DNA of 64,000 nt from Peptococcaceae bacterium BRH_c8a. GTDB taxonomy: Bacteria > Bacillota > Desulfotomaculia > Desulfotomaculales > Desulfallaceae. The stretch spans positions 1 through 64,000 of the forward strand of contig LADP01000032.1 in the NCBI GenBank assembly GCA_000961575.1. The letters run 5' to 3'. The notes beneath the pieces were generated by a model that was not told where the DNA came from, ran no database searches, and saw nothing but the letters and a program-made list of their open reading frames with translations. This document shows, piece after piece, positions 20,261-61,371 of the stretch; positions within the stretch are counted from its first letter, which is position 1, and the number at the start of each line of letters is the position of its first letter. Made by a program: the position numbers and the translations under genes.

Positions 20261-20276
20261 AAAATGTAAATAAATT

Positions 20277-20349
20277 GATACGAAGACGTATCGAATATCG
20301 GGTCAAAGTAGTCCTGATGCCGTGCTGCGCGCGGGTTAGGGCTTTTTTT
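20277..20349 (+). promoter_or_regulatory. ANTAR-type dual hexaloop leader with terminator, amtB1 module 1 (weaker)
   Basis: P1: stem GATAC/GTATC, loop GAAGAC (20277-20292). P2: GGTC/GTCC with one T-T mismatch, loop AAAGTA (20301-20314). The terminator stem AGTCCTGA/TTAGGGCT (20310-20343) and T run reuse the 3' arm of P2. This is the least regular of the thirteen modules. Confidence 0.55.
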
Positions 20350-20368
20350 GTCACCAAACAATTTAAAT

Positions 20369-20431
20369 CTCCAACGGGGGAGCAGGGCAAAGGCGCTCAA
20401 TTTGGCTGATTAAAGCCGGGGTGCTTTTTTT
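20369..20431 (+). promoter_or_regulatory. ANTAR-type dual hexaloop leader with terminator, amtB1 module 2
   Basis: P1: CTCC/GGAG, loop AACGGG (20369-20382). P2: GGGC/GCTC, loop AAAGGC (20385-20398). The terminator pairs GCGCTC (20393-20398) with GGGTGC (20419-20424) around an inner GGCT/AGCC stem, then seven T. The P2 3' arm is the terminator 5' arm, so the two folds exclude each other. Confidence 0.8.
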
Positions 20432-36740: not shown

Positions 36741-37985
36741 TCACAAATTCTGGTTTAAGTCGATGCACAGTATGTACCGGCGGTCGTTTTCCGGTACTTT
36801 GAACAGCGTGGAAATAGTAATGCACAGGTTGCCCGAGGCCAGTGATATGTATGGGGCAGTGGTAAACCTTTGCATGCCGGTATTGGTTAACAGGTAATAA
36901 TAGTCCTTTAGGGAATGATCCGCCCCCTTGGGAGCGGGGCGGAATATGGAGCCTCTGTGACTTAAAATGTTCCGGTAGTTACAAAAGGTGTCACTGATCT
37001 GGATGCCCTGCTCGTCAAGCAGGTAAATACATTCCAGGTTAGGATGCTGGCTGATTAAATCTTTTAGTAGAGCGTTGTACGCTCCTGAATTTACTGCCGA
37101 CAAGTTGTGAATAATGTGGTTGGCGATGGTCTGGTAGCGCATGTGCCTGTATTTGGCATCATTAATCTTATTTACCATGTAGTTCTTAAACTTGTCCGAA
37201 ATTAAATTAATGCGCTCTTTAAAAACCTGCAAATCATTTCCTAACATCGCCATCGGCCTTGAGAAATAAAATCCCTGGAGCATGTCTACGCCTAATTCCA
37301 GGGAAGTTATGGCTTCATCTTCCCGTTCCACACCTTCTGCCACCACCAGGGTACCAATTCTTTTAGCCAGATTGACCAATGATTTAAGCACTTCCTGCTT
37401 GTGATAGTTTATGTCGATTCCTGAGATCAAAGAGCGATCAATTTTTAGCAGGTCCGGCTTGGTAATGGTAATCCGGTCCAGGTTGGAGTAACCCGAGCCG
37501 ATGTCATCAAGGGCAAACAAAAAACCGTATTCCCGGTGTCTGTTGATAAACTCATTCAGCGCCCTAGTGTCGTTGACCCTGGATTCAATTATTTCAATGA
37601 CCACATTGTTGGGGTTAAGATTAAGCTGCCGCACCTGGTTCAGCAGGTGTCCGGAACCCACTATGCCCAGGTCGATTATAGATGTGTCAAAATTCATGAA
37701 CAGGATTATATCCCGGTTCTTAAGATCCAGGCTATTGAAATTTTCCATGGCTTTTTGCCTGCACAACCGATCCAGGTCCAGAGTCAGGTTGTTTTCTTCA
37801 GCCAGGCTAAAAAGGGTATTGGGGGGCAATATACCGCCACTGTCGGGACAGATGCCCCGGGATAGAGCTTCCAACCCAATGACGGATTTCTTTTTTACAG
37901 ATACGATGGGCTGAAAATGTGTGATTATGCCCTTGTCATTGATTATTTTGCTGATGCTGCTGCTTCTCTTAACTGCCAGAGTCAT
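36741..37985 (-). CDS. EAL-domain protein (c-di-GMP phosphodiesterase) with C-terminal sensor
   Basis: The 414-residue protein has an N-terminal EAL domain (residues 10-250): IVSVKKKSVIGLEALSRG, MNFDTS, ALDDIGSGYSNLDR, KIDRSLISG and VVAEGVERE with the metal-binding acidic residues present, so it should be active. There is no GGDEF domain and no membrane segment. The C-terminal 160 residues look like a PAS/Cache-type sensor (CIYLLDEQGIQISDTF, YISLASGNLCITIS). The adjacent disrupted receptor gene has a similar C-terminal sensor. Confidence 0.9.
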   Translation of the reverse strand: MTLAVKRSSSISKIINDKGIITHFQPIVSVKKKSVIGLEALSRGICPDSGGILPPNTLFSLAEENNLTLDLDRLCRQKAMENFNSLDLKNRDIILFMNFDTSIIDLGIVGSGHLLNQVRQLNLNPNNVVIEIIESRVNDTRALNEFINRHREYGFLFALDDIGSGYSNLDRITITKPDLLKIDRSLISGIDINYHKQEVLKSLVNLAKRIGTLVVAEGVEREDEAITSLELGVDMLQGFYFSRPMAMLGNDLQVFKERINLISDKFKNYMVNKINDAKYRHMRYQTIANHIIHNLSAVNSGAYNALLKDLISQHPNLECIYLLDEQGIQISDTFCNYRNILSHRGSIFRPAPKGADHSLKDYYYLLTNTGMQRFTTAPYISLASGNLCITISTLFKVPENDRRYILCIDLNQNL

Positions 37986-38033: not shown

Positions 38034-39413
38034 TTAATTTAATATCTGCGCCATAACACCGATTACCCCGCGCCCGTCAAGGATGGGAATCGAAACCGTG
38101 ATGCAGGGCTGCCTGGTTATGGCCGATATGTATACCGGTGATGTGATTGCTTGCCCGGCCATGGCCTTTTGCCACCATTCCCTGACCCCGGCATTAGCCA
38201 AACCGGCGGGGGGCTGAGAGTAAATAAAGCTGCCCGTGTTATCGTTGGACCAAATTGCTTCTATATCCGTGTTTTCTGTTTTTAATTCCGACAAAACTGT
38301 TTTGTGGCTGTAGGGTTCCATGGTTTGAATATCCCTCTGGTTGGCTGCCCGGAGCATAATCTCTTTTAAGTCGTTGATGCGTGATGCCACTTCCTGATTA
38401 ACCAGGTATGTTAAACTATTATCGTGAGCGACCTGTTCCAGATTTTCGGCCAACTCATGCATTAACCGGCCGGTATTTTTTACCCCTTCCAGGTCTTTTT
38501 GGCGTGATTCCAACACTGCCGCTGTTTGCTGGAGTGAATCGTTGGCGGTATTCAGGCTGTCCCCGGCTGTGGTGCTGACCCTTTGCATCAGATTGAAACT
38601 ATTGCTTAGAGTTTCCTCGGCGTTTTTAATCTGAGCCGCGGCAGAGGTTGATGAATTTAAGCTGTCGGTAATGCTTTCCACCACTGAATCCACTTTTTGC
38701 TGCATTTCTGCCAACACGCTGAAGGCTTGCTGAACTGCTCCGGCGGTATGATCGGAAAGTTTGCTTATTTCTTCCAGCTACCACCGAAAAGCCCCGGCCG
38801 TGTTCACCTGCCCGTGCTGCTTCAATGGTGGCGTTCAGGGCCAGCAGCTTGGTTCGGCCGGATATGGCGCCAATATTCTCTGCAATGGATTGAACTTGGC
38901 CAACGGCAGTTTCCAGGTGCCTATGTGTTCTTTTAACTCTTTATTGCCGCCGGTAATGTCAAGCACGGCCTTATTTACCCGCCCCATGGCGAAATTAACT
39001 TCCCGGACTGCGGTTTCGCTGGCGGAAAAGTCATTTTCCAGGGCGGCGCTGGTTTGCCGCAGGGCAGCAGCCAGCTGTTGCATTTGTTTAAATGCTACCG
39101 CAATGTCGGAAACTGAATGTACCGAGGTTTCCATCTGGCTGTGGGCCGCCCGGACCTGCTGAGAGGTCAGCTGTATTTCCTGGGCCATTGTTTTTGCCTG
39201 GCCAGACAACTCGTACACGGCCGTACTTAAAACTGCTAATTCGCCTGTGCCGATGATTTTTTTTGTAGCTGGGAGTTCAACATTACGCCAGCCAGATGCC
39301 CTGCTGGCTATTTTTTTAGCGCCATTAATATAGCGTTTACGCAAATTGATACAAACAGCTGTTCCCAGGGTGGCGGCCACCGCAAAACCGGTTAGAAATT
39401 CGATCAGAACCAT
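38034..39413 (-). pseudogene. Methyl-accepting chemotaxis-like receptor, broken by two compensating frameshifts
   Basis: Read leftward from ATG 39413 (after AAGGGGG), one membrane helix (LIEFLTGFAVAATLGTAV) leads to a helical signalling region. Near 38917 the frame slips by one base; the signalling hairpin [20 protein letters not shown] then [17 protein letters not shown] continues in the new frame to about 38774, where a second slip restores the first frame ([17 protein letters not shown], then AEMQQKVDS). The C-terminal part ends in a Cache-like sensor (WSNDNTGSFIYSQPP, CITVSIPILDGRG). Sequencing error is possible, but two slips 140 bases apart suggest decay. Confidence 0.8.
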
Positions 39414-39596
39414 TAAAAACCCCCTTGTATAAAAAATAAAGCCACCCGCAAAACGGGCAGCTTCTTCGCCTAGTTGATACAACTTTGTATCTGTATTTAA
39501 TTAAGGCAGATTATAGTCTATTGTGTCGAAGTTGTCAATAAATTTAAAGCATAAAATGGATTTATTGCCAGCTGGTCAATCTTCCAAAAGTTGTTG

Positions 39597-39656: not shown

Positions 39657-39735
39657 AAATACGATGTCGTATTTAAGGCAAAGATGCCCCCGTGACAGAG
39701 GTTAATTAATTCTCTGCAGGGGGTTTTTGTTTTTA
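39657..39735 (+). promoter_or_regulatory. ANTAR-type dual hexaloop leader with terminator, nifV
   Basis: P1: AAATAC/GTATTT, loop GATGTC (39657-39674). P2: GGC/GCC, loop AAAGAT (39677-39688). The terminator pairs CCCCC (39687-39691) with GGGGG (39719-39723), inner AGAG/CTCT, then TTTTTGTTTTT. P2 and terminator share the GCC bases. Confidence 0.8.
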
Positions 39736-39765
39736 TAAATCATAAGCAGGGGAGTGATAGTAAAA

Positions 39766-40653
39766 GTGCCGGTAGAGAAGAAACTATTTGCGCGCGGGCC
39801 TGCCATTGTTGACACCACTTTGCGAGACGGTGAACAGGCCCCGGGTGTGGCGTTTACCTTGCGGGAGAAAGTAACCATTGCCAGGCTTTTGGATCTGCTG
39901 GGGGTGGAAGTCATTGAGGCTGGTGTTCCAGCCATGGGAAAAATGGAACAGGATGTTGTGCGGGCTATATGCGAACTGGGTTTGAAATCCCGGGTGGCAT
40001 CCTGGAACCGCGTTCTACTTGCGGATATCAGGGCCTCACTGGCCTGCGGTGTTCGGGAAGTGCATATAACCGCCCCGGTATCGGATCTGCATATCAGGGA
40101 TAAATTGGGCAAGACCAGACACTGGGTAATGGATTGCTTGGTCAGGGCGGTCCGCTATGCCCGGGAACACGGATGCCGGGTATCAGTGGGTGCTGAGGAT
40201 GCTTCGAGGGCGGATTTTGGTTTTTTGCTTGAATATGCCCTATTGGCACAGGATGCGGGTGCCGAAAGACTGCGTTACGCCGACACGGTGGGGGCACTGG
40301 AACCTTTTACCACGCGGCGGATGGTAAGTATGCTAGTAAGCAAGCTGGATATTCCGGTGGAGTTTCACGGGCACAATGATTTTGGTCTGGCCACCGCCAA
40401 CAGCCTGGCGGCTTTTGCTGGCGGCGCGGCGTTTATCAGCACCACGGTGGGAGGTCTGGGTGAGCGGGCCGGCAATGCCAGTTTGGAGGATATGGTGTTG
40501 TTGTTCGGTGACAACTTTTGCTCTGCAAATGGTTTAAAAACCGGTGTCCTTGGGGCGCTGGGCAGGTACGTGGCCCGGGCCGCGAACCGGCCACAGCACC
40601 ACCATGTAATCCTGCGTCGGCCGGCATTAACCAGATTGATGATTGACAATTAA
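39766..40653 (+). CDS. nifV: Homocitrate synthase NifV, short form
   Basis: The 295-residue TIM-barrel protein condenses 2-oxoglutarate and acetyl-CoA to homocitrate, the organic ligand of FeMo-cofactor. [38 protein letters not shown] and [19 protein letters not shown] hold the substrate and metal residues. Typical NifV is about 380 residues; here the protein stops soon after the barrel ([14 protein letters not shown]), lacking the C-terminal helical part. Clostridial species are known with a two-gene NifV, but no second half is in this window. GTG 39766 fits GGGGAG upstream. Confidence 0.88.
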
Positions 40654-40680: not shown

Positions 40681-40754
40681 AAATACAAAGTTGTGTTTCT
40701 GGCGAAGGCGCCTTTGAGGTGAGTTTTTACCTGCGAAGGGCGTTTTGTGTTTTT
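40681..40754 (+). promoter_or_regulatory. ANTAR-type dual hexaloop leader with terminator, AAA+ regulator module 1
   Basis: P1: AAATAC/GTGTTT, loop AAAGTT (40681-40698). P2: GGC/GCC, loop GAAGGC (40701-40712). Terminator CGCC...GGCG with inner TTGAGGT/ACCT, 40709-40742, then TTTTGTGTTTTT. A TTGACA at 40643 overlaps the end of nifV and could be the -35 site. Confidence 0.75.
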
Positions 40755-40775
40755 AAGGATAAAAGTAAAATTAAA

Positions 40776-40840
40776 GCCCAACGTTGGGCATTATGGGCAT
40801 TGGGGCTGTTTCCGGTTAAATATCCGGCGGCCCTTTTTTG
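40776..40840 (+). promoter_or_regulatory. ANTAR-type dual hexaloop leader with terminator, AAA+ regulator module 2
   Basis: P1: GCCC/GGGC, loop AACGTT (40776-40789). P2: GGC/GCT, loop ATTGGG (40796-40807). Terminator GGGC/GCCC (40803-40806 with 40830-40833) around CCGG/CCGG, then six T. It ends 23 bases before the regulator start. Confidence 0.75.
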
Positions 40841-40862: not shown

Positions 40863-42272
40863 TTGCAAGACGTACTTAAACTTTTAATCAACCTGACCCA
40901 AAAACTGGGGAGCGTACATCATTTCAACCGGGAAGTGGATGCTGTTATGGACTTATCCTACGATGGTATTTGGATTACAGACGGGACGGGAAAAACCGTC
41001 CGGGTCAACGGAGCGGTAGAAAGGATCACCGGTCTGGCCTCCGGGGCACTGCTGGGGCGTAACATCGATGCAGTAATGGATGGGGACATTATGGAAACTT
41101 GTTCCGGTTTGGATGCCTCCCAACAATCTATTAACGGAAGGCTGGTTATTGTTAATGGCTGCCCCATCCTGGATGATGCGGGAATCGTTGAGAGTTTGGT
41201 TTTTAACCTGCGGGAGCTGTCTGAACTGAACGAACTGAAGTCGGAATTGGAACAAGCCCGCTTCAAAATGGAAAAATACCATCGTGAGGCTGCCGAACTA
41301 CGCGCCCTTCGTATGGGCACCCAACGTCTGGTGGCCAACAGCAAGGCCATGGCTGACGTTATCGATGCCGTGCACAGGGTGGCACGGCTAAAAACCAGCG
41401 TATTGCTGGTGGGTAAGTCCGGGGTGGGCAAAGAAGCAGTGGCCAGGCTGGTTCACATGTCTGGCGGACAGAATGGTTCCTTCGTCAAGGTTAACTGCCG
41501 GTCCATTCCCGGCGAAATGCTGGAGATAATACTGTTTGGCCGTGAGCAGCAAGGAATGGCCGGCGAAAAAAGCTTGTTTGAGTTGGCTTCGGGAGGCACG
41601 CTTTTTATTAAGGAAGTGGCTGATATTCCTCCTAACCTGCAAAAAAAGTTGCTGGATGCCATTGCGGACGGGCAGATTACCAGGGTGGGCGGCACCATAC
41701 CGGTCAAGGTAGACGTGCGGGTTATCGCTGCGACCGAGAGGAATCTCAATAAGTTGGTTAAGTACAACAGAGTCCGTAAGGACTTTTGTACCGGTTTGAA
41801 TGCAGTTGCTATTTCCATTCCTCCGCTTAATAAGCGTAGGGAGGATATTCCGGTGCTGCTTCAATACTACACCCGCTTGTACAACGAAAAACATGACTGC
41901 AACAAGCGGTTGTCGATTAGGGCTATGGAACTGCTGGTAGACTACGAGTGGCCGGAGAATGTAAGGGAATTGGTTAACTTGGTGGAAAGGCTGATTATCA
42001 CTGTGGAACAAAAATTGATTATGCCTAAACACCTGCCTTCGTACATTTTTAAGAGTGTGAACAGGAGAGAAAACAATAACTTCAAGCCGCTTAAAGAGGC
42101 GGTGGCGGAGTTGGAATTCGAGCTGATTAAAAATGCCGTTGACATTTATGGAAGCACGTATAAAGCTGCCCATATCCTGGGCGTGAGCCAGCCGACAGTG
42201 GTGCGCAAGCTCCAGAAATATGCAAAGAAGGCGCCCGAGGTGCCCAGTGTTTCCGCGGCTGAAGGGAGTTAA
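40863..42272 (+). CDS. PAS/AAA+/TyrR-type HTH regulator with degenerate sigma-54 motifs
   Basis: The 469-residue protein has a PAS domain (residues 25-110, MDLSYDGIWITDGTGKTVRV), a coiled linker, an AAA+ domain (155-395) and a C-terminal HTH (KAAHILGVSQPTVVRKL). It sits where nifA would be. But the GAFTGA loop needed to touch sigma-54 is reduced to EQQGMAGEKS, Walker B reads LFIKEV instead of LFLDE, and one arginine-finger position is lost (FCTGLNA for YYRLNV). Walker A (GKSGVGKE) is kept. It probably acts like TyrR, without sigma-54. TTG 40863 follows GGGAGG; open codons upstream are leader. Confidence 0.82.
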   Translation: MQDVLKLLINLTQKLGSVHHFNREVDAVMDLSYDGIWITDGTGKTVRVNGAVERITGLASGALLGRNIDAVMDGDIMETCSGLDASQQSINGRLVIVNGCPILDDAGIVESLVFNLRELSELNELKSELEQARFKMEKYHREAAELRALRMGTQRLVANSKAMADVIDAVHRVARLKTSVLLVGKSGVGKEAVARLVHMSGGQNGSFVKVNCRSIPGEMLEIILFGREQQGMAGEKSLFELASGGTLFIKEVADIPPNLQKKLLDAIADGQITRVGGTIPVKVDVRVIAATERNLNKLVKYNRVRKDFCTGLNAVAISIPPLNKRREDIPVLLQYYTRLYNEKHDCNKRLSIRAMELLVDYEWPENVRELVNLVERLIITVEQKLIMPKHLPSYIFKSVNRRENNNFKPLKEAVAELEFELIKNAVDIYGSTYKAAHILGVSQPTVVRKLQKYAKKAPEVPSVSAAEGS

Positions 42273-42407: not shown

Positions 42408-42436
42408 TTGCGCTACAATATTGAATCTGTTATAAT
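42408..42436 (+). promoter_or_regulatory. Sigma-A-like promoter of nif operon
   Basis: TTGCGC at 42408 and TATAAT at 42431 with a 17-base spacer. Transcription would start near 42443, a few bases before the first leader hairpin. No sigma-54 TGGCAC-N5-TTGC element was found. Confidence 0.75.
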
Positions 42437-42455
42437 GCAATTAATTCAATTAGCG

Positions 42456-42518
42456 GGTACGTTGTTGTACCAACAGAAGATGGCATTGACGCCGGTGAAG
42501 CAGCCGGCGTTTAGTATT
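42456..42518 (+). promoter_or_regulatory. ANTAR-type dual hexaloop leader, nifH module 1 (weak terminator)
   Basis: P1: GGTAC/GTACC, loop GTTGTT (42456-42471). P2: GGC/GCC, loop ATTGAC (42482-42493). Terminator ACGCCGG/CCGGCGT (42489-42510) is followed by TTTAGTATTT, a broken T run. Confidence 0.75.
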
Positions 42519-42530
42519 TAATTAAATATC

Positions 42531-42601
42531 CGATACGTTGCAGTATCGATACCAGTTTTAGGCGAGGGCGCCGGTATTTAAACACCGGTGCCCTTCCCTT
42601 T
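42531..42601 (+). promoter_or_regulatory. ANTAR-type dual hexaloop leader, nifH module 2 (weak terminator)
   Basis: P1: CGATAC/GTATCG, loop GTTGCA (42531-42548). P2: GGC/GCC, loop GAGGGC (42561-42572). Terminator GGGCGCCGGT / ACCGGTGCCC (42566-42593), tail TTCCCTTT. Confidence 0.75.
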
Positions 42602-42629
42602 ACAAGGAGATCTCCCGATCCCAGGGTAA

Positions 42630-42698
42630 TTACATTGTGGTAACAAAGCAGGCATTGAGGCCGTTGCAGCCCGTCAGGGTTTCGCCGGCCTCTTTTTT
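42630..42698 (+). promoter_or_regulatory. ANTAR-type dual hexaloop leader, nifH module 3 (strong terminator)
   Basis: P1: TTAC/GTAA, loop ATTGTG (42630-42643). P2: GGC/GCC, loop ATTGAG (42651-42662). Terminator GAGGCCG/CGGCCTC (42657-42692), tail of six T. It ends 36 bases before the nifH ATG. Confidence 0.8.
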
Positions 42699-42727
42699 AT
42701 TAACCAAAATCAGTATGGGAGGAATGA

Positions 42728-43558
<831 letters not shown>

Positions 43559-44093: not shown

Positions 44094-44474
44094 ATGAAAG
44101 AGATTATTGCTATTATCCGGATGAATAAAGTTAACCCCACCAAAAAGGCCCTGGCCGATATCGGGGTTTGCGGACTGCATGCTATGAAAGTGATGGGCCG
44201 GGGCAAAATTCACGTGGACCTGTCCGTGCTGCACGAGATAGGCGCCACCGAGGAAATAGCCGGTATAGTTACCGACAGTCTGTCCAAGGGCAGCAGGTTG
44301 ATCCCCAAACGTTTGCTCACCATCTTGGTTCAGGATAACGAAGTTGAAAAAGTGGTTTCCACCATCACCAGTGTCAACAAGGAAGGCAATAAAGGCGACG
44401 GTAAGATATTCATTTGCCCGATTTTGGACGCCGCACGGGTAAGAACCGGCGAGCGGGGCGAATTGGCAGTGTAG
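44094..44474 (+). CDS. nifI2: P-II-like nitrogenase switch-off regulator NifI2
   Basis: A 126-residue P-II-family protein, MKEIIAIIRMNKVNPTKKAL at the start and GDGKIFICPILDAARVRTGE at the end. The central T-loop section (LHEIGATEEIAGIVTDSLSKGS, in part) is longer and unlike GlnB/GlnK, as usual for NifI2. It partners NifI1. GAGGAGGGAGG stands upstream. Confidence 0.95.
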   Translation: MKEIIAIIRMNKVNPTKKALADIGVCGLHAMKVMGRGKIHVDLSVLHEIGATEEIAGIVTDSLSKGSRLIPKRLLTILVQDNEVEKVVSTITSVNKEGNKGDGKIFICPILDAARVRTGERGELAV

Positions 44475-44477
44475 TGG

Positions 44478-44532
44478 AAAGGGGACACACCTCAGCTCAA
44501 AGGACGGGCTTTGGGGTCGAGGAATGTCCCCA
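44478..44532. repeat. GGGGACACACC...GGAATGTCCCC repeat between nifI2 and nifD
   Basis: Second nif-internal copy, ending 23 bases before the nifD start. Shares GGTTTTGGGGTCGAGGAATG-like centre (TTTGGGGTCGAGGAATGTCC) with the previous copy. Confidence 0.9.
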
Positions 44533-44554
44533 AGTAATAAAGGGGGCGGTAGTT

Positions 44555-46192
44555 TTGGCTATCAGTGAAAAAATGCTCGACGAAATTCTAAACAAGTATC
44601 CCGCCAAGGTGAAGCGCAACCGTAAAAAACACATCCTGGTTAAGGATTTGGGCCAGGATCAACAGGAAATAGAGGCCAACACCCGGACCATCCCGGGGGT
44701 CATCACCAACCGCGGCTGTGCCTTTGCCGGTTGCAAGGGCGTGGTGCTGGGACCGCTCAAGGACATGGTGCACATCGTACACGGTCCCATCGGCTGCGCT
44801 TACTACAGTTGGCTGACCCGGCGCAATAAGGCGAAGACGGACGACCCGAAGAAAAACTTCTTGGCCTACTGCGTGTCCACCGACATGCAGGAAAGCGATA
44901 TCGTATTCGGGGGCGAAAAGAAACTGGCCCGCATGATCGACGAAGTGGTGGAAGTATTCAAACCCAACGCCATCACCATCTCCGCCACCTGCCCGGTGGG
45001 CCTGATCGGCGACGATATCCAGGGCGTGGCCAGGGCGGCCCGGGACAAACACGGCCTAAACATTACGGCTTACAATTGCGAGGGGTACAAGGGAGTCAGC
45101 CAGTCCGCCGGTCACCACATCGCCAACAATAACTTAATGGAACATATTATCGGCCAGGGCGACCTGGAAGAGCCGCCCGGCAGGTACACCATTAACATCC
45201 TGGGTGAGTACAACATCGGTGGCGACAGCTGGGAAGTGGAACGGGTACTGTCCGAGATTGGCTACGAGATCCAGGTGGTGATGACCGGCAACGGCTCATA
45301 TGAAAAACTGAAAAATGCCCACGTGGCACAGCTCAACCTGGTGCAGTGCCACCGGTCGATCAATTATATTGCCGATATGCTGGAAACCAGGTACGGCACC
45401 CCGTGGTTAAAGGTGAACTTCATCGGCATCCGGGGCATCTCTGAGTCGCTGCGCAATATGGCCCGCTATTTCGGAGACGAAGCTTTAATCCAACGCACCG
45501 AAGAGGTTATTGAGAGAGAACTGGCCGAGATTGAGCCGCAGCTTGAGCCATACCGCAAAATATGTGCGGGTAAAACTGCCTTTTGTTTCGTAGGTGGTTC
45601 CCGCGGCCACCATTACCAGGGCTTATATGAGGAACTGGGCATTACCACGGTGCTGGCGGGTTACGAATTTGCCCACCGGGACGATTACGAGGGCCGGGAA
45701 GTGCTGCCGCACGTAAAAACCGACGCCGACAGTAAGAATATCCCCGACCTGCATGTGACCCCGGATGAGCGACGCTACCGGCTTAAAATCCCGGTGGAAA
45801 GAATGGATGAACTAAAAAAAGAAATCCCTTTAAGCAATTATAACGGCATGATTGAAGAAATGATGGAAGGCAGTATCGTGGTGGACGATCTGAACCACTA
45901 CGAAACCGAGGAGTTCATTCGCATCTTGAAACCCGATATTTTTTCCTCGGGCATCAAGGACAAATATATACCCCAGAAGATGGGCATACCCACCAAACAG
46001 CTGCACAATTACGATTACAGCGGGCCTTACGCAGGTTTCAGGGGCGCGGTGAATTTTGCCCGGGACGTGGCCATGGGGTTTGCCACTCCCACCTGGAACT
46101 TCATCGAGCCGCCGTGGAAAAGTAAACCGCTACTGGAGGGCACCATCGAACCATGCTCGACTAATAAATGTGCGGAGGAGGTAGGAGCTTAA
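44555..46192 (+). CDS. nifD: Nitrogenase molybdenum-iron protein alpha chain
   Basis: The 545-residue subunit carries FeMo-cofactor and half of the P-cluster. P-cluster cysteines are in NRGCAFAGCKG, HGPIGCAYYSW and ISATCPVGLIGDD; the cofactor cysteine is in LVQCHRSINY and the cofactor histidine in KQLHNYDYSGPYAG. An additional segment of about 50 residues (between AHRDDYEG and DDLNHYET, with LKIPVERMDELKK) is typical of clostridial NifD. TTG 44555 after GGGGGCGG is chosen; codons before it are repeat sequence. Its TAA touches the nifK ATG. Confidence 0.97.
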   Translation: MAISEKMLDEILNKYPAKVKRNRKKHILVKDLGQDQQEIEANTRTIPGVITNRGCAFAGCKGVVLGPLKDMVHIVHGPIGCAYYSWLTRRNKAKTDDPKKNFLAYCVSTDMQESDIVFGGEKKLARMIDEVVEVFKPNAITISATCPVGLIGDDIQGVARAARDKHGLNITAYNCEGYKGVSQSAGHHIANNNLMEHIIGQGDLEEPPGRYTINILGEYNIGGDSWEVERVLSEIGYEIQVVMTGNGSYEKLKNAHVAQLNLVQCHRSINYIADMLETRYGTPWLKVNFIGIRGISESLRNMARYFGDEALIQRTEEVIERELAEIEPQLEPYRKICAGKTAFCFVGGSRGHHYQGLYEELGITTVLAGYEFAHRDDYEGREVLPHVKTDADSKNIPDLHVTPDERRYRLKIPVERMDELKKEIPLSNYNGMIEEMMEGSIVVDDLNHYETEEFIRILKPDIFSSGIKDKYIPQKMGIPTKQLHNYDYSGPYAGFRGAVNFARDVAMGFATPTWNFIEPPWKSKPLLEGTIEPCSTNKCAEEVGA

Positions 46193-54468: not shown

Positions 54469-54531
54469 AAATTCATAATCGGTGTTGCTTTTTAAATTCG
54501 GATTTGGGCTTTCATCAGTTATAGACCTGTA

Positions 54532-54600
54532 ATACAGTGTTGTATGCAGCGGCGAGGACGCCTTGAGGAAGAAATTTTCCCAAAGGCGTTTTTATTTTTT
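54532..54600 (+). promoter_or_regulatory. ANTAR-type dual hexaloop leader with terminator, glnA module 1
   Basis: P1: ATAC/GTAT, loop AGTGTT (54532-54545). P2: GGC/GCC, loop GAGGAC (54551-54562). Terminator ACGCCTT/AAGGCGT (54558-54589) and T run. Confidence 0.8.
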
Positions 54601-54616
54601 TATTCGGGTGGTAAGC

Positions 54617-54646
54617 TTTGGCGCCAGGTGTACACCTGGCACCAAA
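54617..54646. repeat. Palindromic GGCGCCAGGTGT / ACACCTGGCACC repeat between glnA leaders
   Basis: Short member of the GGTGCCAGG family, inserted between the two antitermination modules. Confidence 0.8.
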
Positions 54647-54660
54647 TTGATAACCAGCAA

Positions 54661-54722
54661 GTCCAACGGTGGACGTAGGCACAGTGGCCTTGGCAGAACT
54701 TAGTTCTGCGGGGCCTTTTTTT
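54661..54722 (+). promoter_or_regulatory. ANTAR-type dual hexaloop leader with terminator, glnA module 2
   Basis: P1: GTCC/GGAC, loop AACGGT (54661-54674). P2: AGGC/GCCT, loop ACAGTG (54677-54690). Terminator GGCC...GGCC with inner GCAGAAC/GTTCTGC (54686-54715) then seven T. Confidence 0.85.
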
Positions 54723-54825
54723 GTATCAGAAAGTCAAAGATCGAAGGTTTTTTTAGGTGACTTTTTGACCTTGGACTTTCGCCTTAGATTGACCAGTTTA
54801 CAGATTATTCAAGGAGGTGCTTGTA

Positions 54826-56157
54826 ATGAACATAACCGAAGTGGCGGATTTGGTTCAAAAGAAGGGCATCCGGTTCTTCATGGTCTCCTTTGTTGAAATG
54901 AACGGCGTCAGCCGGGCCAAGCTGGTACCGGCTGAAACCCTGGAGACGGTGGCTGACGATGGCGTGGGCTTTGCCGGGTTCGCGGCCGGGGAACTGGGCC
55001 AAGGGCCTCACGACCCCGACATAATGGCCATCCCCGACCTGGGTTCCATGTGCATACTGCCCTGGCAGCGGGACGTGGCCTGGTTTGCCTCCAACCTGTA
55101 CGTTGAGGGTGAAGCGTGGCCCTGCTGCCCACGCACCATACTGCAGCGTGTGACGGAGGATGCCGCTGCCAGAGGGTACCGGCTGATGGCCGGAATGGAG
55201 CCCGAGTTCCTGCTGGTACGCCGGGAAAATGGCGGGATCGTGCCCTTCGACCCGCTGGACGTATCCGCCAAGCCCTGTTACAACCAGCAGGCATTGACCA
55301 GGAACCTGGATTTTGTCAGCCGGTTGGTCACCCACATGAACGAAATGGGCTGGGGCGTTTACCAATGCGATCATGAGGACGCCAACTGTCAGTTTGAAAT
55401 CAACTGGCAGTATTCCGGAGTGATGAATCAGTGCGACCGGCTTACTTTCGCCAGGTACCTGATTCGTAGCCTGGCGGAGCAACAGGGACTTACGGCCACC
55501 TTTATGCCCAAACCCTTTAAAAATCTTACCGGTAACGGTTGCCATTACCACCTGAGTCTGTGGGACACCGCCGGAAACACCAACCTGTTCCTGAACCGGG
55601 ACGACTCCCTGGGCCTGTCTGAAACCGCTTACTGGTTTATAGGCGGGCTCCTCAAACACGCCCGGGCCCTGGCGGCCATTACCTCACCCACGGTTAATTC
55701 CTATAAGCGGCTGGTCACCAGGCCCACCGATTCCGGATCCACCTGGGCACCAGTATACATTACTTACGGCGGAAACAACCGCACCGTAATGATCCGGGTG
55801 CCGGGACCGGGCCGGATTGAGAAACGCACCGTGGACGGGGCGTCAAACCCGTACCTGGCGACGGCAGCCATCATCGCGGCCGGCCTGGACGGTATCGCCA
55901 ACCGGGTTGACCCGGGCTTGCGGTTTGAAGGCAACGCCTACGCTTACAACGTGGACCAACTGGCGGAGCGCGGATATAAACTACTTCCGTCCAATCTCAG
56001 CGAGGCGCTGGACGAACTGGAGGCGGACGAAGTGCTGACCGCCGCTTTGGGTGAAGAATACACCAGGCTATACATCCGGGCCAAGCGGCGCGAGTGGGAC
56101 GAATACCATAACACCGTGTCCCAATGGGAAGTTGAACGTTACCTGACTGTGGGCTAG
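54826..56157 (+). CDS. glnA: Glutamine synthetase (GlnT/GSIII-like subgroup) or gamma-glutamylmethylamide synthetase
   Basis: The 443-residue enzyme has the GS core: MAGMEPEFLL, CDHEDANCQFEINW, NGCHYHLSLWD, YGGNNRTVMIRVPG and RIEKRTVDGASNPYLA. It is close to the GlnT-like branch that sits with glxBCD in rhizobia and with N-methylglutamate synthase genes in methylotrophs. So the product could be glutamine or, if methylamine is the substrate, gamma-glutamylmethylamide. Nitrogen-type leaders favour ammonium. No adenylylation-site tyrosine of GSI-beta is evident. ATG 54826 after AAGGAGG. Confidence 0.9.
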   Translation: MNITEVADLVQKKGIRFFMVSFVEMNGVSRAKLVPAETLETVADDGVGFAGFAAGELGQGPHDPDIMAIPDLGSMCILPWQRDVAWFASNLYVEGEAWPCCPRTILQRVTEDAAARGYRLMAGMEPEFLLVRRENGGIVPFDPLDVSAKPCYNQQALTRNLDFVSRLVTHMNEMGWGVYQCDHEDANCQFEINWQYSGVMNQCDRLTFARYLIRSLAEQQGLTATFMPKPFKNLTGNGCHYHLSLWDTAGNTNLFLNRDDSLGLSETAYWFIGGLLKHARALAAITSPTVNSYKRLVTRPTDSGSTWAPVYITYGGNNRTVMIRVPGPGRIEKRTVDGASNPYLATAAIIAAGLDGIANRVDPGLRFEGNAYAYNVDQLAERGYKLLPSNLSEALDELEADEVLTAALGEEYTRLYIRAKRREWDEYHNTVSQWEVERYLTVG

Positions 56158-59303: not shown

Positions 59304-59317
59304 TTTATCATACTTGA

Positions 59318-59386
59318 ATACACAGTTGTATACATTTGGCAATGATGCCTTTTGAGGTTTAACAAACTTCAAAAGGCATTTTTATT
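59318..59386 (+). promoter_or_regulatory. ANTAR-type dual hexaloop leader with terminator, amtB2 module 1
   Basis: P1: ATAC/GTAT, loop ACAGTT (59318-59331). P2: GGC/GCC, loop AATGAT (59338-59349). Terminator of 11 bp ATGCCTTTTGA/TCAAAAGGCAT (59345-59379) and T run. Confidence 0.85.
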
Positions 59387-59420
59387 TTAAAAACTAAATT
59401 AACTTAAAAGCTAATAATTA

Positions 59421-59491
59421 GTCCAATGTTGGACAGCAGGCAGAGGGGCCTTTTCGGTAATTTAATTGCTTACCGAAAGCCCCCTTTTTTA
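59421..59491 (+). promoter_or_regulatory. ANTAR-type dual hexaloop leader with terminator, amtB2 module 2
   Basis: P1: GTCC/GGAC, loop AATGTT (59421-59434). P2: GGC/GCC, loop AGAGGG (59439-59450). Terminator GGGGC/GCCCC with inner TTCGGTAA/TTACCGAA (59445-59483), six T. Confidence 0.85.
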
Positions 59492-59497
59492 TTTTAA

Positions 59498-59548
59498 AAG
59501 CGAAGGCGCTTAATTAGAGCATTGATGCTCTTTTGAAGCGTCTTTTTT
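59498..59548 (+). promoter_or_regulatory. ANTAR-type dual hexaloop leader with terminator, amtB2 module 3
   Basis: P1: AAGC/GCTT, loop GAAGGC (59498-59511). P2: AGAGC/GCTCT, loop ATTGAT (59516-59531). Terminator GATGCT/AGCGTC (59524-59542) and six T. From here to the gene (about 150 bases) no further structure was seen. Confidence 0.75.
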
Positions 59549-59705: not shown

Positions 59706-60989
59706 ATGAAAAAAAGAATGGGTGTAATTGCATTACTTGCACTAATGATGATCTTTATTTTACCCATGTTTGCCTGGGCGGCGGAAGAAGGCATTGATAC
59801 CGGAGACACTGCCTGGATGTTGGTGTCTTCAGCGATTGTAATGTTGATGGTACCAGGACTGGCGCTGTTTTACGGCGGTATGGTGCGGCAAAAGAACGTG
59901 TTGAACACCATGATGATGTCATTTATTTGCCTTGGTGTAATCACTATCCAATGGATGCTCTGGGGCTACACCCTGTCATTCGGTTCCGACATCGGAAAAC
60001 TCATCGGCGGCATGGACTTCTTCGCGTTGAACGGTGTAGGTTTGGAACCCGCAGGTACTATCCCACACCAATTGTTCATGGTTTTTCAAATGATGTTTGC
60101 CATTTTGACCCCGGCACTGATTACCGGTGCTATTGTGGAACGGATGCGCTTCCCCGCCTATCTGTTGTTCCTGGTTCTGTGGGCCACCCTGGTTTATGAC
60201 CCCATCTGCCACTGGGTATGGGGCGGCGGATGGCTGGCCGAGCTGGGCGCGCTGGACTTTGCCGGCGGCACCGTGGTGCACATCTCTTCCGGTGTATCCG
60301 CCCTGGTGGCGGCCCTTGTGTTGGGTAGGCGCAGAGGTTATGGTACCGAGCGCATGGTTCCGCATAATATTCCGTATGTAGTAATTGGCGCGGCTATACT
60401 GTGGTTCGGTTGGTTCGGTTTCAACGGCGGTAGCGCCCTTGCCTCTGACGGACTGGCGGCGAGCGTATTTGTGAATACCCAAATTGCCGCCGGCGCTGCC
60501 GTCATGTCCTGGGTAATTGTCGAGTGGCTGCGGCACGGTAAACCCACTGTACTGGGCGCGGCCTCTGGTGCCATCGCCGGTCTGGTGGCTATTACTCCGG
60601 CCTGCGGTTTCGTAACCCCAATGGGTTCGCTGGCTATCGGTCTTGTGGCGGGTGCACTCTGCTACTTCGCGGTTAGTTACGCCAAGGTTAAGCTGGGTTA
60701 CGACGATTCCCTCGACGTATTTGGCATCCACGGTGTGGGCGGCATGTGGGGTGCCCTGGCCACCGGGTTGTTTTCGGTTGAAGCTGGAGCTGAAGGCCTG
60801 TTCTACGGCAACGTCGCGCAGGTTGGCATCCAGGCTATAAGTGTAGTGGCAACAATAGCTCTGGCCGCGATAGCTACATTTGTCATCCTCAAAGTGGTGG
60901 GTGCAATTACCAAACTGCGCGCTGACGACGAAGCCGAGGTACTGGGCCTGGATGTGAATGAACACAGCGAAAAAGCTTATTCGGTTTAG
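59706..60989 (+). CDS. amtB: Ammonium transporter (second copy) with signal peptide
   Basis: A 427-residue Amt channel with a cleavable signal (MKKRMGVIALLALMMIFILP, ending FAWAAEEG), then eleven membrane helices: MVPGLALFYGGMVRQKNVLN, YDPICHWVWGGGWL, LDFAGGTVVHISSGVSALVA, WFGWFGFNGGSAL and FGIHGVGGMWGALATGLFS with the pore His pair. GGAGGT precedes the ATG. The glnK gene follows by 43 bases; GlnK blocks the channel when nitrogen is plentiful. Confidence 0.95.
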   Translation: MKKRMGVIALLALMMIFILPMFAWAAEEGIDTGDTAWMLVSSAIVMLMVPGLALFYGGMVRQKNVLNTMMMSFICLGVITIQWMLWGYTLSFGSDIGKLIGGMDFFALNGVGLEPAGTIPHQLFMVFQMMFAILTPALITGAIVERMRFPAYLLFLVLWATLVYDPICHWVWGGGWLAELGALDFAGGTVVHISSGVSALVAALVLGRRRGYGTERMVPHNIPYVVIGAAILWFGWFGFNGGSALASDGLAASVFVNTQIAAGAAVMSWVIVEWLRHGKPTVLGAASGAIAGLVAITPACGFVTPMGSLAIGLVAGALCYFAVSYAKVKLGYDDSLDVFGIHGVGGMWGALATGLFSVEAGAEGLFYGNVAQVGIQAISVVATIALAAIATFVILKVVGAITKLRADDEAEVLGLDVNEHSEKAYSV

Positions 60990-61032
60990 TAAAATATGGT
61001 AATATAAAAATCTAAAGGAAAGGATGCTGAGC

Positions 61033-61371
61033 ATGGTTAAAATAGAAGCTATCGTCAGACCAGGCGTGTTGGAGGACATCAAGGATGGTCTGTCCAAGTT
61101 TGGGATTCATGGCTTGACGGTGTCTCAGGTAATGGGCTGCGGACTGCAAAAAGGCCGCAAAGAAGTATACCGCGGCACTGAATACAGCATCAACCTGCTC
61201 CCCAAGGTAAAGATTGAAATTGTTTTAGCTGCAAAGGATGCAGACGGCGTTATAGAGGTGATTATCAAAGCGGCTAGAACTGGTGAAATCGGTGACGGCA
61301 AAATCTTTATCACTAAAATTGATAATGCTGTCCGGATTCGCACCGGTGAAAAAGGCGATGCAGCACTGTAG
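61033..61371 (+). CDS. glnK: P-II regulatory protein GlnK
   Basis: The 112-residue P-II protein has KIEAIVRPGVLEDIKDGLSK, a T-loop with GRKEVYRGTEYSINLLPK including the tyrosine that is uridylylated in many bacteria, and GDGKIFITKIDNAVRIRTGE at the C-terminal loop. ATG 61033 follows AAGGATG. Paired with amtB as usual. It is the third P-II homologue in this island besides NifI1 and NifI2. Confidence 0.95.
   Translation: MVKIEAIVRPGVLEDIKDGLSKFGIHGLTVSQVMGCGLQKGRKEVYRGTEYSINLLPKVKIEIVLAAKDADGVIEVIIKAARTGEIGDGKIFITKIDNAVRIRTGEKGDAAL

Follow-up and report, generated by a model that had tools for sequence, protein, structure and literature searches.

A sigma-A-type promoter and three tandem ANTAR-type modules predicted to govern the nif operon of a Peptococcaceae bacterium

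How is transcription of a nitrogenase operon governed when three complete attenuator-like modules stand in series between its promoter and nifH, and what might three such modules do that one would not? The question is raised by contig LADP01000032.1 of Peptococcaceae bacterium BRH_c8a, of which positions 1 to 64,000 (the window, 64 kb) were analyzed here. The initial annotation had placed three complete modules at 42456-42698 behind a sigma-A-like promoter. All three are present, each with two hexaloop hairpins (P1 and P2), of which P2 overlaps a terminator-like stem, and the tails quoted after the three stems proved correct on re-reading the sequence. The locus comprises the following features:

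42408-42436, + strand: sigma-A-type promoter, -35 TTGCGC at 42408-42413, 17-nt spacer, extended -10 TGTTATAAT at 42428-42436
42456-42519, + strand: module 1, P1 42456-42471, P2 42482-42493, terminator stem about 42488-42511, tail TAGTATTT
42531-42601, + strand: module 2, P1 42531-42548, P2 42561-42572, terminator-like stem 42566-42593, poor tail TTCCCTTT
42630-42701, + strand: module 3, P1 42630-42643 (4 bp), P2 42651-42662, terminator 42657-42692, tail TTTTTTATT
42734-43558, + strand: nifH, first gene of the nif operon (NCBIfam TIGR01287, 457.6 bits against a cut-off of 394)
44414-46192: nifD (TIGR01282, above cut-off)

The open reading frames that follow nifH comprise two nifI/P-II-like genes, nifD and more nif genes.

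The P1 and P2 hairpins (loops bracketed) read GGTAC[GTTGTT]GTACC and GGC[ATTGAC]GCC in module 1, CGATAC[GTTGCA]GTATCG and GGC[GAGGGC]GCC in module 2, and TTAC[ATTGTG]GTAA and GGC[ATTGAG]GCC in module 3, with P1-P2 linkers of 10, 12 and 7 nt, respectively. Loop position 4 is G in all six loops of the nifH leader and is invariant in module alignments A1 and A2, as the first selection of modules demanded. Loop position 1 is always a purine (A in three of the six loops, G in the rest). In each of the three modules P2 overlaps the 5' arm of the terminator, and the two folds are therefore mutually exclusive. With only 4 bp, P1 of module 3 is absent from the minimum-energy fold of its segment; the tail of module 2 can pair with it in the computed fold. 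The gap between modules 2 and 3 (42602-42629) is occupied in relatives by a short hairpin that keeps roughly its place but varies in sequence (GGGGAAC...GTTCCCC in L007, for instance).

The sigma-A-like promoter is likewise borne out. TTGCGC-N17-TATAAT with its extended -10 can be read in the sequence and recurs in related nifH leaders, most of which (of 17) carry TTGnnn-N17-TGnTATAAT 11-18 nt 5' of the first P1. A generic sigma-70 scan with a 9-of-12 rule missed the nifH-leader promoter because the -35 agrees at 3 of 6 positions only. A sigma-54 (-24/-12) promoter was also sought ahead of nifH, with no convincing match.

Any leader can contain some hairpins, and an Rfam search at gathering thresholds returned no match for this one; ordinary stacked terminators or chance hairpins 3' of the upstream activator gene, with no ANTAR connection, might give the same picture. 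This explanation is nonetheless highly improbable. A first covariance model (R1) was built from 34 modules and is circular for the window, whereas a second (R2) contained only modules from other families, some of them first found via R1. R2 recovered nifH modules 1, 2 and 3 in the window with E-values of 2.2e-5, 2.5e-4 and 2.8e-4, which are rough owing to a short calibration. In the window it gave eight matches under E 0.01, every one of them a leader module, and the matches cluster in nitrogen-gene leaders. P1 base pairs covary well beyond shuffles, in a set biased towards structure because the scan that first selected many of them required pairing. A conserved promoter lies immediately 5' of the modules, and tandem modules stand ahead of nifH throughout the order, in which modules are found in 87 of 113 genomes at E 0.05 and ANTAR domains in 99 of 113.

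The genome itself encodes two proteins whose ANTAR domain exceeds the Pfam cut-off, and each also has a receiver domain (REC-ANTAR; G000:C39). Their genes alternate on one strand with two glutamine synthetase genes and one glutamate-synthase-like gene (L003:4960-11123), and one of them has a module of its own upstream. No histidine kinase was seen beside them among the open reading frames listed for that interval. The proposal that nif is under ANTAR-type antitermination stands as far as anatomy goes, dual hexaloops and terminator overlap both fitting it. We read 42408-42701 as a tandem ANTAR-type attenuator, preceded by a sigma-A promoter, that would govern the nif operon, predicted antitermination mechanism included, with a probability of roughly 85%.

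The nifH leader does not stand alone. When R2 matches, weaker matches and one module found by eye are counted together, about 14 modules are spread over seven leaders in the window, mostly before nitrogen-metabolism genes. The other six leaders, with the activator gene, are as follows:

20276-20424, + strand: leader of a second ammonium transporter, two weaker modules (R2 E 0.46 and 1.3; terminator scores 19.6 and 4.6)
39441-39492, - strand: single module of chemoreceptor-like open reading frames (R2 E 1.3e-5; terminator score 16.4)
39657-39723, + strand: single module in the leader of a nifV-like gene (HMGL-like, 39754-40653; R2 E 7e-5; terminator score 14.3)
40681-40742, + strand: first module of the sigma-54 activator leader (R2 E 5.1e-5; terminator score -6.8)
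40774-40833, + strand: second module of the same leader (weak, R2 E 0.19; strong terminator, 19.7)
40863-42272, + strand: PAS / sigma-54 activator / HTH gene (Pfam Sigma54_activat 144.8 bits, PAS, HTH_50)
54530-54715, + strand: leader of a glutamine-synthetase-like gene (54817-56157), two modules (R2 E 2.4e-4 for the first)
59316-59542, + strand: leader of amtB (59706-60989) and glnB (61024-61371), three modules (R2 E 1.8e-4, 0.14 and 0.039)

The activator gene sits between nifV and nifH and itself carries two ANTAR-type modules; it likely starts at a TTG after GGGAGG, and its protein scored under the cut-off of the NCBIfam nifA model. The minus-strand module at 39441-39492 precedes open reading frames 38835-39482 and 38034-38717 and an EAL-domain gene (36741-37985, - strand). 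The two frames were judged chemoreceptor-like by eye, had no Pfam match and are possibly one broken or misread gene; the position of the module suggests a signalling operon beside nif under nitrogen control. The second module of the glutamine synthetase leader (54659-54715, terminator score 24.0) is the one spotted by eye. The amtB triple has terminator scores of 15.1, 3.7 and 3.5. A second, close amtB copy farther along the same contig is also preceded by modules (L154:8109-8310), and the second ammonium transporter gene, behind 20276-20424, is a more distant one.

Do the three terminators of the nifH leader rise in strength, as had been claimed? Strength was measured as a d'Aubenton-Carafa-type d score with energies from ViennaRNA; in 1500 random 20-nt start ranges of the window its 99.5th percentile was -4.1. 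Over the stem registers tried, module 1 scored -4.6 to -25.5, module 2 -12.3 to -39.4 and module 3 +20.8. The first two terminators look leaky and the third strong, and module 3 is clearly the strongest, but there is no steady rise, module 2 being weaker than module 1. Module 2 combines the strongest stem energy with the poorest U-tract, so that the two measures disagree, and because of this poor U-tract it possibly fails to stop polymerase altogether unless helper factors assist. Poor-tailed terminators may still work with the help of NusA and NusG (PMC8060035). Among eight related triples, seven from family f1 plus G112, the d order was module 2 < module 1 < module 3 in every case, and in 7/8 by U-tract alone, although these are related genomes with inherited modules and not eight independent events. 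Rising strength as a general rule was discarded in view of the falling amtB triple and the two-module leaders: in just four of nine Desulforamulus-type ones does the second module outscore the first. That the last terminator is the strongest holds, on these scores, at nifH in this genome's family; it is neither a steady rise nor a general design.

The order of strengths bears on what three modules would achieve. If they acted as successive, independent checkpoints, read-through would be pseudo-cooperative and nif nearly all-or-none, and precedents exist: tandem complete riboswitches respond more steeply, in a "more digital" fashion (PMC9481103), and measurements on a natural triple c-di-GMP riboswitch showed greater stringency and a more digital response than with one or two units (PMC4759541). 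Such steepness requires, however, an efficient stop at each module, and here modules 1 and 2 fall below zero by d score, as does module 2 in 7/8 of the related triples, although NusA and NusG may rescue poor tails. Read-through was modeled as the product of 1 - T(1 - occupancy) over independent modules, with assumed termination efficiencies. Three strong terminators increased both measures of steepness, the 10-90% Hill slope (1.00 to 1.26) and the maximal log-log slope (0.75 to 2.26). A weak-weak-strong series gave only 1.04-1.09 and 0.85-0.97, that is, nearly the curve of a single strong terminator with a basal level about two- to four-fold lower, and reversing the terminator order had no effect. 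The idea that the layout makes nif nearly all-or-none is not supported by this comparison, leaky modules 1 and 2 adding the least steepness under the assumed efficiencies: with only the last stop looking strong, the layout by itself does not imply such behaviour. We consider a steep switch of this kind unlikely. Modules 1 and 2 might instead be mainly extra ANTAR sites, for recruitment or titration, with module 3 doing the stopping. In module 2 the stem remains strong and model scores high, yet the U-tract is poor in seven of the eight related triples; better tails are seen at the corresponding position in Desulforamulus-type genomes, and the ANTAR sites of the EutX RNA are discussed as decoys sequestering EutV (PMC8934654). 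A poor U-tract may nevertheless still pause or terminate with factors, and a pure binding site would not need its stem kept, which leaves the proposal doubtful.

The history of the modules offers another perspective, namely that copy number is neutral; the upstream copies would then be redundant products of tandem duplication, in partial decay. A tree of the nifH-leader modules, which are short sequences, groups them by position: proximal modules of families f1 and f8 fall together, the middle modules of f1 mostly lie beside upstream modules of f8, and the first modules of f1 mostly form a separate set. The f1 triple is best read, from this tree, as an old pair plus an added upstream copy. The G036 triple has two proximal-type copies, and the added copies therefore differ between f1 and G036, as might be expected of neutral gains; the proximal pair is retained in two-module relatives. 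Module 2 tails are weak, and in G017 module 2 has a good tail and a degenerate P1. Neutrality is unlikely all the same, in that modules 1 and 2 show good conservation of both loops and stems over several genera. The U-tract of the f1 middle module is poorer than that of its f8 counterpart, with values that do not overlap (Mann-Whitney p 0.001, kinship uncorrected, with G017, whose module 2 was hand-placed, and G112, of another family, left out). The f1 middle module seems to have kept its predicted protein site while its terminator weakened. A more speculative step still is that this module ceased to be an attenuator and became an ANTAR loading or titration site with a poor terminator, setting the threshold for nif induction; if true, the leader would have three parts with divided roles and not three equal checkpoints.

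For the attenuator reading that we favor, we infer binding, antitermination, the nitrogen signal and terminator strengths in the cell from the sequence, and the mechanism would run as follows. As long as no active ANTAR protein is present, each P2 would give up its 3' half to the downstream stem, and most RNA polymerase would be released at the strong third terminator, some at the first and little at the second terminator. When nitrogen is limiting, an activated REC-ANTAR dimer would bind the G4 hexaloops of P1 and P2 and hold P2, by which each terminator would be prevented. The three modules would multiply their effects, lowering basal read-through, chiefly via module 3, and shifting the response to higher activator levels, with modest extra steepness.

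The dual-hairpin antiterminator architecture and its mechanism were established for EutV by Ramesh et al. (2012; PMC3369931), who also predicted such RNAs ahead of nitrogenase subunit genes and counted at least 13 predicted attenuators, spread over six transcription units, in Desulfotomaculum acetoxidans. The structure of a EutV-RNA complex identified loop G4 as the key contact and A1 as making no specific contact (PMC8934654). In the Enterococcus faecalis EutV/EutW system the eut leaders have the same architecture as the leader described here, and the mechanism is presumably shared. Those leaders, however, contain single modules spread through the operon and answer to ethanolamine through a known kinase, whereas here three modules share one leader. 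Like tandem riboswitches, the nifH leader places complete sensor-plus-terminator units in series, which may act as successive checkpoints; in the riboswitches, by contrast, the sensors are small-molecule aptamers and not protein-bound elements, and the steepness described for them depends on every unit terminating effectively.

In the open-licence literature, no studied tandem ANTAR nif leader was found beyond Ramesh et al. (2012). Their ANTAR nitrogen regulons (D. acetoxidans and the nitrogenase regulon of Pelobacter carbinolicus) have the same dual hexaloop hairpins and the same overlap of P2 with the terminator as here, likewise involve nitrogen genes including nitrogenase, and also have several RNAs per transcription unit. 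The leader studied here differs in that G often replaces A at loop position 1, and the order of terminator strengths in tandem leaders, analyzed here, is not dealt with in the text consulted (PMC3369931). The nifH leader is a further case of this described kind of ANTAR nitrogen control. It extends a predicted and little-tested form of nif control, a sigma-A promoter combined with antitermination, to a family of Desulfotomaculum-like anaerobes, and within a single 64-kb window about 14 modules link nif, nifV, the activator, glutamine synthetase and ammonium transport. Relative to the regulons already described, the conserved weak middle module raises the one new question: its split from a strong last terminator poses a testable question about the purpose of serial protein-controlled attenuators.
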